Source of the DNA: Sphingobacteriales bacterium
GTDB lineage: Bacteria > Bacteroidota > Bacteroidia > Sphingobacteriales > Sphingobacteriaceae
Assembly: GCA_026390835.1 (NCBI GenBank)
Contig: JAPLFD010000009.1
Span: 27,290-91,289 of the forward strand
DNA: 64,000 nt
Reading direction: 5' to 3'
Part shown: one piece after another, positions 23,529-64,000 of the stretch
How the letters are laid out: each line of letters opens with the position of its first letter
Position numbering within the stretch: position 1 is the stretch's first letter
Translations under genes and position numbers: made by a program
Notes under the pieces: generated by a model
The model's database searches: none
The model's input: the letters and a program-made list of their open reading frames with translations, nothing else
Told to the model about the DNA's origin: nothing

Positions 23529-25882
23529 AATGGCATGCCTATACCAAAGTTATATTGCACAAAGCGATATACATCTGGATAGTGTGTGGTGGCATAGATT
23601 TGTTTAAACTCTTTATTAAACATATTTTTTATAACCCACTGATCGGAGCCCGTAAATTGCGGATCACGAATTTTAACCGCGGCATCTAATCGGAATATAA
23701 AATAATCCATATCGAAACGTAAGCCAGCACCAGCACCAATGGCAAATTGCTTTAAGAATTTAGAAGAATTGAATTCCCCTCCAGGGTTTTCGGCCACAGC
23801 ACGTATACGCCAAATATTTCCAAAATCGGTAAAAGTAGCACCTTTTACTTTGGCACCAAATAAGTTATTGAGTATTTTAAAGCGATATTCTAAGTTACCC
23901 TCAAATTTAATCTCTCCTAACTGATCTAAATTACGTAGGTTTTGCCGAATCTGCGGATCAATATCTGCTCTATTGTAATTACCCGGACCAAGTGTTCTAG
24001 CTTGCCAAGCTCTAATTCCATTGGTTCCTCCTGCATAAAAATTCTTTTCAATAGGTAAGGCAGAATTGTTACCATATGGAATACCAAATCCTGGATTCAG
24101 TCTAAACACCAATTGCTTATCGCCACCAAAATGTTTGTACCAACGTAAATCTAATTCTGTTTTAGCGTATTGCAAATAAGGTAAGCCAAACATGGTTCTA
24201 TAACCTTTCGCATCTATTTTTAAATTCAATGCTTTACTTAACAAGCCCAAGGTATTGCCACTTAAATCTGCAGAGGCTTTTAAATAAAAGAAATTGCTTT
24301 TGGTGCTTAATAAAATATTATTGAGCGTAAACGCATACTGACTGCCAAAGTTTACAAATTGTCTGTCGTTGGTTTTAACATACAATGAAAAGCCATTTGC
24401 ATTTAAATAATCTCTAAAATCGGCATCTAACTGACCATTTCTATACTCTAAATTAAAGGGCGTAAAAGTGTGTTTTTTATACTTGGTTTCCATCCAATCG
24501 TATGAAATTGCATTGATGAAGGTGCGATTTTCGAAAGCGTTTGTTTGGCGAAAATATTGGAAACTCGTAGAAAAAGTGGTGTGAGGCAAGCCATTTTTAC
24601 TCGAAACGGTATTCTTAAAAGGTATTACAATACGAGGGAATATTAAATTAGCACCAAGTTCAAATTCTCGGTTAAATGCTCTATCAGAAAGCTGGCTCAA
24701 GGATTTTGATTCGAACAATACACCATATCTAAACTTAAGATCGAACTGCTCGGCGCCACCAAATAAATTACGATTGGTGTAGGTATTACCAATATTAAAT
24801 CCATTTCTGGCTCCATTTAAGGTATATTCACCCTCAAGCCGGTTAGACATTTTTTTAAGTAGGGTAAAATCATAAATGGCATCTAACACATGTGAGGTAT
24901 CCGATTGTTTTTGATAACTAATTTTTATATTCCTAAATACGTTTAAATCATACAAGCGGTCGTAAGTTAGGTTCTCAGCCTCTAAATTATAATTAGTGCC
25001 TTTTTTAGAAAATATATATCTTGTAATGGGTTTCAATTTAAACCTACCTGAATAATCTTTCAGGTAATACTTATTATCTAATACTGCAGAATCTAATGTT
25101 GTGGAACTAAGCAAGCCAGCACTGGTACGAATAGCCAAATAACTATTCCCAATAGTAAAAGCTTCGTGTGCTAACTTACCAGAGGGATTGCTAATAAACA
25201 GTTTTAAATTCGTTTTGTTTTTAAGGCCATTCGTATCTACCTCAAATCGTAAATACTGACGTAAATACTCATAATAACCACTTTTTCGCATCAATTGGTA
25301 AACTTGTTCTCTCTCTGCGTTTAAGGTATCGGCATCGTAGCGTTTTTCCTTTGCTACACTTGAAAATGCAGCTTGATTTTTTAAATATAAACTCCGCACC
25401 GAGGTATCGGGAATTGTATAACTCAAGGCATTTATGGTGAATTCTTCTCCAGTGTTTGCAGTAAACGTAATTCGGGCTTTTTGTTTTTCAATAGCAATAG
25501 CACTTTCAACTTTTGCACGCAAAAAACCCTTCGTTTGTAAAAATTTCTCTATTTGTGTTCTAGATATTTCTACCAAAGAACTATCTAAAAATGCAGGTGC
25601 TTCGCCTATTTTTTTTATGTTATCGGTACGATAACGACCTTTTTTAACATTTACCAGATTATATAAACGCAAATTTAACCAAGATGGTTTACGCAAATCC
25701 CGTTGCACGTATTCGTAGGCTTGTTCCTCAAAACGAGGGTCTATATTTTTTAAATGTATCTTTCTAACAAGTACCTGCTCCTTTTCTAAAAACCTAGTAG
25801 GCGAACAGCCAATCACAGAAGTGAAGAGAAAAAGCAGTATTATTGTACGAACAAAAAATGGCTTAGTGGCGTATGCTTTCAA
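23525..25882 (-). CDS. tamL: BamA/TamA-family outer membrane lipoprotein, TamL-like
   Basis: LFLFTSVIGC lipobox; POTRA-like N-terminus; NFYAGGTNGIRAWQARTLGPGNY and C-terminal KFLKQFAIGAGAGLRFDMDYFIFRLD barrel motifs. Apparent TTG start. Confidence 0.85.
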   Translation of the reverse strand: MKAYATKPFFVRTIILLFLFTSVIGCSPTRFLEKEQVLVRKIHLKNIDPRFEEQAYEYVQRDLRKPSWLNLRLYNLVNVKKGRYRTDNIKKIGEAPAFLDSSLVEISRTQIEKFLQTKGFLRAKVESAIAIEKQKARITFTANTGEEFTINALSYTIPDTSVRSLYLKNQAAFSSVAKEKRYDADTLNAEREQVYQLMRKSGYYEYLRQYLRFEVDTNGLKNKTNLKLFISNPSGKLAHEAFTIGNSYLAIRTSAGLLSSTTLDSAVLDNKYYLKDYSGRFKLKPITRYIFSKKGTNYNLEAENLTYDRLYDLNVFRNIKISYQKQSDTSHVLDAIYDFTLLKKMSNRLEGEYTLNGARNGFNIGNTYTNRNLFGGAEQFDLKFRYGVLFESKSLSQLSDRAFNREFELGANLIFPRIVIPFKNTVSSKNGLPHTTFSTSFQYFRQTNAFENRTFINAISYDWMETKYKKHTFTPFNLEYRNGQLDADFRDYLNANGFSLYVKTNDRQFVNFGSQYAFTLNNILLSTKSNFFYLKASADLSGNTLGLLSKALNLKIDAKGYRTMFGLPYLQYAKTELDLRWYKHFGGDKQLVFRLNPGFGIPYGNNSALPIEKNFYAGGTNGIRAWQARTLGPGNYNRADIDPQIRQNLRNLDQLGEIKFEGNLEYRFKILNNLFGAKVKGATFTDFGNIWRIRAVAENPGGEFNSSKFLKQFAIGAGAGLRFDMDYFIFRLDAAVKIRDPQFTGSDQWVIKNMFNKEFKQIYATTHYPDVYRFVQYNFGIGMPF

Positions 25883-28499: not shown

Positions 28500-28503
28500 G
28501 CCG

Positions 28504-28511
28504 CAAAGGTA
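28504..28511 (-). promoter_or_regulatory. -7 element TACCTTTG immediately before ABC-F gene
   Basis: Minus-strand TACCTTTG-CGGC-ATG (4 nt spacing). Confidence 0.55.
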
Positions 28512-28624
28512 ACATTGGCAAGGTTAATACAGCGTTAAAGCCTAAATTTTGCAGCATATATTTTCAACAACTAGTTTCAACAAAGAAAAGCTGAGTATTT
28601 ATAGATATAAAAATAATATTTTAC

Positions 28625-28632
28625 TATTTTTG
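28625..28632 (+). promoter_or_regulatory. -7 element TATTTTTG upstream of tRNA-Cys
   Basis: TAnnTTTG, 16 nt before the tRNA 5' end. Confidence 0.55.
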
Positions 28633-28648
28633 CAGTCCTTGAATAAAG

Positions 28649-28719
28649 GGTCGGATGGCCGAGTGGCTAGGCTCAGCTCTGCAAAAGCTGCTACAGCGGT
28701 TCGAATCCGCTTCCGACCT
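28649..28719 (+). tRNA. tRNA-Cys (anticodon GCA)
   Basis: GGTCGGA/TCCGACC acceptor stem, CAGCT-CTGCAAA-AGCTG anticodon arm, GGTTCGAATCC T-arm, U73 discriminator. Confidence 0.95.
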
Positions 28720-28746
28720 CAAGAAAAAACTTAAAAAAGAAAGACC

Positions 28747-28926
28747 ATGGGAGTAACTCGTTTAAAAAGAAAAGACAGAAGAAACAAAACCGTTTCTCGT
28801 TTAGAAGTGCAATTTTTGAAAATGGCTCACAACATTGAAGTGGGTAGCCGTTCAAAAGAAAAAGCTAGCAGCCAAGTTTCTAAAAACAATGCTGTTTTAG
28901 CTCAAATTGAGGCTAAAGCGAAGTAA
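28747..28926 (+). CDS. Small basic conserved-looking protein (59 aa), below the ORF-track length cutoff
   Basis: ATG...TAA translating to MGVTRLKRKDRRNKTVSRLEVQFLKMAHNIEVGSRSKEKASSQVSKNNAVLAQIEAKAK, followed by a strong terminator. Confidence 0.85.
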   Translation: MGVTRLKRKDRRNKTVSRLEVQFLKMAHNIEVGSRSKEKASSQVSKNNAVLAQIEAKAK

Positions 28927-28967
28927 GTAGCATAACCGGCATTTTGCCGAGAACAATATATAGATCA

Positions 28968-28996
28968 CCCGATTAAGCAATTAATCGGGTTTTTTT
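28968..28996 (+). terminator. Rho-independent terminator after the 59-aa ORF
   Basis: CCCGATTAA-gcaa-TTAATCGGG then TTTTTTT. Confidence 0.93.
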
Positions 28997-29017
28997 GTTT
29001 AGAGCAAATCAAGGAAA

Positions 29018-39814: not shown

Positions 39815-40273
39815 ATTAGCGTAAATAGGCAATTCGGGCACAAATTGGTAGCTATTTTGATCCCAATTTAGTAAACAGCAATAATGGGTCAAACCATTAC
39901 TTACCAATAGCCAAGGCACTCGGTGTACAAAATTATAGCGGGCAATTTGGTCGAACGTATCTTGGCTAATTTTTACACTAGGCGCTTTGCATTCTACCAA
40001 CAATACTTTTTCGCCGGCCGCATTAAACACCAACACATCACTTCGTTTTTGCAGGCCATTGTAGTTCAATCCGCCTTCTAATTGAATGAGCCCTTTGGGT
40101 ACTTTTTTCTCTTGAATAAGAAATTGTACTACGTGTTGTCGTACCCATTCTTCAGGCGTTAGCACCAAAAACTTTTTTCGCACTTCATCAAAAATGGATA
40201 ATGTATCTCCTTCTTCCTTCAATTTAAAGGAATAAGGCGGAAAAGCTAAAGGCGTTTGTTGGTACGGGAACAC
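39809..40273 (-). CDS. Stand-alone HSDR_N (type I restriction R-subunit N-terminal-like) nuclease-fold protein
   Basis: PD-(D/E)xK-like KRSDVLVFNAAGEKVLLVECKAPSVKISQDTFDQIARYN; GTG start. Confidence 0.8.
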   Translation of the reverse strand: MFPYQQTPLAFPPYSFKLKEEGDTLSIFDEVRKKFLVLTPEEWVRQHVVQFLIQEKKVPKGLIQLEGGLNYNGLQKRSDVLVFNAAGEKVLLVECKAPSVKISQDTFDQIARYNFVHRVPWLLVSNGLTHYCCLLNWDQNSYQFVPELPIYANL

Positions 40274-40337
40274 AGCGGCTAATTTCAGAAAAAAATGGTA
40301 GAAATGGGGCTAAATAATTTGTAATTTGGCAACACCC

Positions 40338-48933: not shown

Positions 48934-49072
48934 AGGCTATTTCTGATTGGGAACGAAAAGATTGGCATAATAGTTGACATCACATTATACGAACAGGCGC
49001 TAAAAATATTTAAAATCGATGCGTTATAGTTCAAAAACTGTAAATTTAAATACAAACCAACCCAATTCAATT

Positions 49073-50125
49073 ATGAAAACAACCCTATTTTCTAAAAAAG
49101 GCATTGTATTAACAATGTTATTTTCAGCGCTTTGCATACAAGGTTTTGCACAGTCTGACATTGAAGGATTATTTAAATCGAGCCAATCCGATGCTCAGAA
49201 ACTCATCCAAGCATACATGAACCCTTTCTTTAAAGGAATGGGCACTGGCCTGAATTCGGGTTGGAACAATACTGCTGCTAGTAAAAAATTGGGCCGCTTT
49301 GAGCTACGTTTTGGCCTATCCGGAGCAATGATTCCGGAAAAAGATAAGACTTTTGACGTGACAAAATTGGGTTTATCTAGCAATTTAGAACCAAGCAATC
49401 CGGCTCTGGTACTTAGCCCCACCATTGGGGGTGAAAAAACAGCAGGACCATCTATGAATATAAAAAATGGGGGTTCTATAGTGGGGACATTTATAATGCC
49501 TCAGGGTGCAAAACTACCTTTTGTGCCGGCACCACAATTACAAGCTAGCATTGGCCTGATTAAAGGGCTAGAACTTACCTTACGTACTATGCCAACCATT
49601 AAACTTGGTGACAATGCAGGTTCAGTTGGTATGACTGGAGCTGGATTAAAAATGAATCTAGTGCGCATGTTGGCCGGTAAAAAAGCCGACAAAGTACTAC
49701 CATTCGATCTAGCTGCTGCAATTGGCTATACCAAGTTTAGTTACAACCTGCCCTTAGATGTACAAACTAGCAATAGTACCTACACCGATCAAATGCTAAA
49801 AGCTAAATTCACTGGAGTAAACGTAGAAGCAATTATCTCTAAAAAATTAGCCTTCTTTACTCCTTTTGCAAGCATTGGTTACCAAAGTGCTAAAACAACT
49901 ATAGATTTAAAAGGTACTTTTCCTTTTGAAACCGGTGCACAGGGCGCTAATGATCAATATACGACAATTGTAGATCCTATTGCCATTTCTCAGAAAGATA
50001 TCAGTGGGCTGCGTACCAATCTCGGATTTCAACTACACTTAGCTTTTTTACGTGTGTACGGATCATACAGCATGGGCACCTACAATTCGTTTAATGCAGG
50101 TCTAGGACTTGGTATTGGCAAATAA
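49073..50125 (+). CDS. DUF6588-like outer membrane protein, unknown function
   Basis: Signal peptide MKTTLFSKKGIVLTMLFSALCIQGFAQ; beta-rich, glycine-rich; terminal GSYSMGTYNSFNAGLGLGIGK. Confidence 0.7.
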   Translation: MKTTLFSKKGIVLTMLFSALCIQGFAQSDIEGLFKSSQSDAQKLIQAYMNPFFKGMGTGLNSGWNNTAASKKLGRFELRFGLSGAMIPEKDKTFDVTKLGLSSNLEPSNPALVLSPTIGGEKTAGPSMNIKNGGSIVGTFIMPQGAKLPFVPAPQLQASIGLIKGLELTLRTMPTIKLGDNAGSVGMTGAGLKMNLVRMLAGKKADKVLPFDLAAAIGYTKFSYNLPLDVQTSNSTYTDQMLKAKFTGVNVEAIISKKLAFFTPFASIGYQSAKTTIDLKGTFPFETGAQGANDQYTTIVDPIAISQKDISGLRTNLGFQLHLAFLRVYGSYSMGTYNSFNAGLGLGIGK

Positions 50126-63043: not shown

Positions 63044-63667
63044 TTACTGGTTACTTACGTTTAGCAGGTGCGAACGTGCTTCCTCTAACTGAGTAGCAAT
63101 ATCTTTGCGACCGGGGTTGGCTACTAACACTTTCTGAAAATCAATAATACAAGCTTTTAGCGCCTCAATGGCTCTAGGCTTATCGTACAAACGAGGTATT
63201 TTTTGTGCTTTTAATACACCATAATCGTGGTAGGCAATGGCTCTATTTTGATAGTATTTCAGATCATCGCTATTCAAATCTATTGCCCTACTGAAATCTC
63301 TAATAGCCGATAGCAATAATTTTTCTCTTTCTGAATTGGCGATGCTAGGTGTATAATTAGCCATAAAACTTCGGGCCTTACCACGATAATAATACGCTGA
63401 AGTTTCACTTGGCTTTAATGAAATCAGTTTCCCAAAAGCAGCCACCGAGTTTTTATAATCTTCGGCATGGTAATAAGAATAGCCCAACATGTATAAGGCA
63501 TTTAAATTGGTAGAATCTGCAACCATAGCCTTTTCTAAATGTAGCACCGCTAACTTAAAATTACCATCCAAAAGTGCCTTTTTGCCTAAATCTTGATAAG
63601 AATCTTGCGCAAATACCTGAGCACCTATAAGCATTAAAAAAATAGTAAAACGGAATACGGTGCTCAT
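63044..63667 (-). CDS. Tetratricopeptide repeat protein with signal peptide
   Basis: AVLHLEKAMVADSTNLNALYMLGYSYYHAEDYKNSVAAFGKLISLKPSETSAYYYRGKA. Confidence 0.85.
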   Translation of the reverse strand: MSTVFRFTIFLMLIGAQVFAQDSYQDLGKKALLDGNFKLAVLHLEKAMVADSTNLNALYMLGYSYYHAEDYKNSVAAFGKLISLKPSETSAYYYRGKARSFMANYTPSIANSEREKLLLSAIRDFSRAIDLNSDDLKYYQNRAIAYHDYGVLKAQKIPRLYDKPRAIEALKACIIDFQKVLVANPGRKDIATQLEEARSHLLNVSNQ

Positions 63668-63785: not shown

Positions 63786-63832
63786 TCTGCCGTTTTAGCA
63801 GAGTATATAGAGATAGCCGTATCTTAGCAGGC
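63786..63832. promoter_or_regulatory. Twice-repeated GCCGT...TTAGCAG motif, candidate activator-binding sites
   Basis: TCTGCCGTTTTAGCAGA at 63786-63802 and GCCGTATCTTAGCAGGC at 63816-63832, 27 bp apart. Confidence 0.35.
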
Positions 63833-63854: not shown

Positions 63855-63871
63855 TTGGCATGACGCTTGCT
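63855..63871 (+). promoter_or_regulatory. Sigma-54 (-24/-12) promoter
   Basis: TTGGCATG-ACGC-TTGCT against YTGGCACG-N4-TTGCW: one mismatch, GG and GC with exact 12-bp register. Confidence 0.72.
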
Positions 63872-63939
63872 TAGTAATCAGTCCGCCTTAGTGAGCGGAG
63901 AAGCATTTATATTAATGCCATATTGACGCAAAAGAATTT

Positions 63940-64000
63940 ATGAGTAATCACAATCCATACGATTTTAACAACGCCATGCCGCTAATCAATGAAGATACGG
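63940..64000 (+). CDS. 5' end of an unidentified CDS, cut by right window edge
   Basis: ATG MSNHNPYDFNNAMPLINEDT, open to the window end, downstream of the sigma-54 site. Confidence 0.6.
   Translation, partial: MSNHNPYDFNNAMPLINEDT

Follow-up and report, generated by a model that had tools for sequence, protein, structure and literature searches.

To our knowledge, both sigma-32 and HrcA are lacking in Bacteroidota, and we know of no settled answer to the question of how the heat-shock genes of this phylum are controlled without them. A transcription start of the sigma-54 type has been mapped upstream of lon in Flavobacterium psychrophilum (PMC9723704), and a co-expression cluster of this organism unites lon with groES-groEL, dnaK, grpE-dnaJ and htpG (PMC9723704). 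COG0466 (Lon) is among the enriched Bacteroidota targets in a PSSM survey published in 2025 (PMC12316311). Since the sigma-54 start of lon is already mapped in F. psychrophilum, the lon promoter treated below is the known part of this study. The dyad element found in its vicinity and the assignment of an activator to this element appear to be new, as judged against the open-access literature, in which no description of either was found.

The window, i.e. the whole 64-kb stretch of DNA that was analysed, originates from a freshwater member of the Sphingobacteriaceae (Bacteroidota), the genome of which is small (1.46 Mb, assembled in 20 contigs) and 87.6% complete. The contig stops at the end of the window and interrupts an open reading frame after its first 20 codons (63940 to 64000, forward strand), which reads MSNHNPYDFNNAMPLINEDT. 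These 20 codons match the N-termini of Lon proteases of the same genus and are identical in the congener G001, while the remainder of lon, devoid of its N-terminus, is located at the end of another contig (C16). From both findings, the gene starting at 63940, of which the first-pass annotation had seen only the beginning, is identified as lon. The gap upstream of lon is bordered by a divergent gene for a TPR-repeat protein (63044 to 63667, reverse strand). This gap had been taken for the largest of the window, which was not confirmed: it comprises 272 nt and is exceeded by five others (581, 523, 518, 324 and 290 nt, from open reading frames called at >=80 amino acids), two of which hold tRNAs. 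The three longest (25292 to 25872, 39815 to 40337 and 28500 to 29017) each extend over more than 500 nt without an open reading frame of at least 80 amino acids, and the last of them carries a tRNA-Cys. Rfam and tRNA scans gave no match at the lon promoter locus.

A sigma-54 element with one mismatch to the consensus had been proposed in this gap. Such an element, TTGGCATGACGCTTGCT, is located at positions 63855 to 63871 of the forward strand, with GG at -24, GC at -12 and exactly the 10-nt spacing (GG-N10-GC) of sigma-54 promoters, which carry GG and GC/GA dinucleotides at these positions. It is the sole match to YTGGCACG-N4-TTGCW with at most one mismatch within the window. When up to three mismatches are allowed, 44 matches are found in 64 kb compared to 45.5 by chance, so that the motif alone is weak evidence for a promoter. 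Placing the C of GC at -12 leads to a predicted start at 63882 and a 5' untranslated leader of 58 nt, the same positions as in the first-pass annotation. The TCCGC...GCGGA hairpin noted there is present as well and starts at the predicted 5' end (63882 to 63899, forward strand; weak, z = -1.55). In near relatives, the corresponding part of the lon leader also holds hairpins, but of different sequence, while Pedobacter has none. General conservation of the hairpin was therefore rejected, and its confinement to near relatives suggests that it may be a lineage-specific stem protecting the mRNA.

The element is conserved before lon. Among 81 lon loci of Bacteroidota (the window and 80 loci of a named collection with Pedobacter, Mucilaginibacter, Sphingobacterium, Flavobacteriales and others), 70 have the pattern NTGGCAN6TTGN within 200 nt of the lon start, compared to none for the reversed pattern, none on the other strand and a mean of 0.39 (maximum 2) in shuffled sequences. 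The bases TGGCA...TTG are invariant across the 70 matching loci, and several of the 11 loci without the full pattern have near-misses. The -24/-12 bases are thus kept in close and distant relatives alike. TTGGCATGACGCTTGCT is a real sigma-54 promoter of a known kind driving lon; its start at 63882 is a predicted one in this organism.

The promoter had been made dependent on two further genes, rpoN and one for an enhancer-binding protein (EBP), and both are present in the genome. RpoN is encoded with all three sigma-54 domains (activator-interacting, core-binding and DNA-binding). It was matched in 391 of 393 genomes; the two genomes without a match were too few to serve as negative control, and this comparison was dropped. 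With the sigma-54 activator domain as query and a threshold of E < 1e-30, one EBP was found in this genome and one in the congener G003, compared to two to nine in other relatives. At 87.6% completeness a second EBP could escape notice, against which the 99% complete congener G003 (four contigs) argues. The EBP has 419 residues or slightly fewer. Its layout is of the PspF type: the AAA+ domain starts within the first approx 20 residues, no sensor domain is present and the C-terminal end is a Fis-type helix-turn-helix (HTH). Both scores against PspF family cut-offs are far too low (263.9 bits with a cut-off of 443.55 for NCBIfam PspF, and 220 bits with a cut-off of 529), for which reason the protein is described as having a PspF-like architecture and not as a PspF. 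In the 30 genomes examined, the HTH sequence LGISERTLYRK is nearly invariant, and the EBP gene is located behind miaB in 29 of them. In this genome, groES-groEL follows a few genes downstream of the EBP gene, beyond lptE and secG.

Aligning the lon regions brought to light a further conserved leader element, the dyad TGNCA-N3-TGNC(A/G). In the window it is found once, as TGCCA-TAT-TGACG at 63916 to 63928 (forward strand), 61 nt downstream of the T of TTGG, and is a candidate EBP site; it had been overlooked in the first reading of the sequence. Exact palindromic pairs of 4-mers were also searched for, but these were mostly AT-rich noise. The dyad is present in 38 of the 81 lon regions (0.55 expected). 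From the promoter, the dyad is separated by 60 to 63 nt in 27 loci and by 83 to 84 nt in another five, two classes that differ by two turns of the helix. Its spacing to the ATG, by contrast, ranges between 24 and 42. Being locked to the promoter and not to the ATG, the dyad goes with transcription rather than with translation. A degenerate dyad, TGCCG-TTT-TAGCA, is located 67 nt before the -24 element (63788 to 63800, forward strand) and is a possible upstream enhancer. Elements of this class (CTGMC-N-TTT) occur at preferred distances in the lon regions of relatives, with weaker evidence than for the leader dyad.

The same combination was found in front of the major chaperone genes. In this genome, dnaK (dyad TGCCATCCTGTCA), groES (TGACAGCATGACA) and grpE (TGACAGCTTGTCG) each have a dyad upstream and a -24/-12 element of their own, that of groES with a variant -12 element deviating from TTG. 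Sigma-54 elements are thus located before dnaK, groES, grpE and lon, as in a regulon of the F. psychrophilum type (B254). In relatives, dyad and -24/-12 element were found together in 18 of 25 dnaK, four of five groES and nine of ten grpE regions. Most other -24/-12 matches of the genome are located inside open reading frames and were set aside. In a blind scan, 121 family genomes were searched with nothing but TGACA-N3-TGTCA and TTGGCA-N7-TG separated by a gap of 48-78. This gave 35 matches compared to none for the reversed pattern, and 29 of the 30 loci inspected are positioned directly upstream of dnaK. An earlier class-wide scan with CTGACA returned matches at chance level only, partly because TGCCA forms and the -12 variant of groES were omitted. 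The gaps of the blind scan cluster at 63-66 and at 73-76, offset by one turn of the helix. Relative to the -24 element, the dyads of dnaK, groES and grpE are found near -24, -46, -67, -77, -88 and -99, corresponding to a period of approx 10.6 bp (best period 10.0-11.1; p ~0.0002 for distinct positions, a value made optimistic by the relatedness of the loci). One extra site at -70, overlapping a phased site, was excluded from this test. As far as positions in the sequence can tell, this phasing is the pattern expected of an activator having to face the polymerase.

Besides the chaperone genes and lon, the operon of the EBP itself is marked by the dyad. The 19-kb locus around the EBP gene contains two dyads, one before groES and the other one, TGACATTCTGTCA, just before miaB at the head of the EBP operon (L009:11608-11620). 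Of 30 genomes, 27 carry a dyad at the miaB-EBP promoter, where 0.18 would be expected, and 26 of them also have a housekeeping TAnnTTTG element 8-21 nt further downstream. The form TGNCA-N3-TGTCA is found at the miaB promoters (L210 to L239) of most Bacteroidia examined. The dyad is tied to the EBP by this association, from which we infer binding by the EBP. Autorepression of PspF acts through its own site, and the position of the dyad at the housekeeping promoter of miaB-EBP suggests an EBP that controls its own synthesis. By analogy, the EBP probably represses its synthesis through the miaB dyad, the direction of this autocontrol being modelled on PspF. The tRNA-modification gene miaB would share this control through the common operon promoter.

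Taken together, a sensor-less, PspF-like EBP is likely to bind the dyad, to activate a sigma-54 regulon for proteostasis, of which lon is a member, and to control the operon in which it is encoded. The different regulatory logic that the first-pass annotation had assumed for the gene at 63940 is supported in this form. The proposed regulon would comprise lon, dnaK, grpE and groES-groEL, and its activator would most likely be the sole EBP of the genome, encoded behind miaB. Bound to the dyad, the EBP would always face the -24/-12 element from the same side of the helix, and would contact and remodel the closed RNA polymerase-sigma-54 complex so that the lon, dnaK, grpE and groES promoters open. 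At lon, the enhancer might be the leader dyad, the degenerate element at 63788 to 63800, or both. The regulon may respond to heat or unfolded protein; protein damage would free or activate the EBP, which, having no sensor, might be governed by a partner protein, at a guess a chaperone. The same dyad at the miaB operon would limit EBP synthesis. A wider proposal, put forward tentatively and with slightly less than even confidence, is that the miaB-linked sensor-less EBP might be the general heat-shock activator of Bacteroidota in place of sigma-32 and HrcA, activating dnaK, groES, grpE and lon via a phased TGNCA-N3-TGNCA enhancer and sigma-54, repressing its own operon and sensing stress by its free state, e.g. 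through chaperone titration. If true, a major phylum would rely on sigma-54 as a core factor of its stress response; rpoN was matched in 391 of 393 genomes. With a single gene, DNA site and geometry named, all of them conserved, heat-shock control in this phylum becomes directly testable.

Several observations speak against the proposed regulon under a single EBP, among them the variant -12 element of groES. The lon dyad is located downstream of the start, an unusual position if it is an enhancer, and the dyad on the upstream side is degenerate. A second sigma-54-like site, TTGGCATAATAGTTGA (48962 to 48977, forward strand), which was missed in the first-pass annotation and is kept in the congener G003 as TTGGCATAATAGTTGC, has the -24/-12 element but no TGNCA-N3-TGNC dyad, though only one EBP is known. 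The open reading frame directly behind this site (49019 to 50125, likely start at 49073) encodes a protein that carries a signal peptide and is probably exported. Moreover, since the dyad occurs at sigma-54 as well as at housekeeping promoters, it could also be the operator of a repressor, for which the miaB-EBP housekeeping promoter and the lon leader are typical places. The -24/-12 promoter would then be real, but the dyad would be bound by another protein, e.g. one that represses the chaperone genes, and the EBP would activate from solution or from other sites. We consider this unlikely in view of the phasing with the -24/-12 element, the upstream positions near -77 and -88, which are typical of activators, and the dyad marking the EBP's own operon in 27 of 30 genomes. 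Even less probable is a lon gene transcribed mainly from a housekeeping promoter, with the sigma-54 element in a minor role. The sequence TATCTTAG (63820 to 63827, forward strand), which weakly matches the housekeeping -7 element TAnnTTTG, is retained in the two nearest relatives and could add a basal promoter for lon, but it is lost in other congeners that keep the -24/-12 element, and the lon start mapped in F. psychrophilum is of the sigma-54 type (PMC9723704). That the match before lon arose by chance, as the chance rate of weaker matches in the window might suggest, is refuted to near certainty by its conservation (70 of 81 loci compared to 0.4 expected), by rpoN and an EBP in the same genome and by the mapped orthologous promoter (PMC9723704).

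The reading preferred here, a sigma-54 proteostasis regulon under a sensor-less EBP, shares its target genes dnaK, groES-groEL, grpE and lon with the sigma-32 (RpoH) and HrcA/CIRCE systems, but differs from them in the sigma factor and in the operator: CIRCE consists of 9-bp inverted repeats separated by 9 nt, whereas the dyad has 5-bp halves and a 3-nt spacer. The EBP resembles the enterobacterial phage-shock activator PspF in lacking an N-terminal sensor domain and in its Fis-type HTH, and PspF autorepression is the model for the dyad at miaB-EBP; the targets of PspF are, however, the psp operon, instead of cytoplasmic chaperones and Lon. The closest counterpart is cluster B254 of F. psychrophilum, a member of the same phylum, with its sigma-54 (SM4) starts before lon, dnaK, groES-groEL and grpE-dnaJ (PMC9723704). 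While the activator is left open among three EBPs there and the text gives no enhancer site, the genome analysed here offers one EBP and one dyad.
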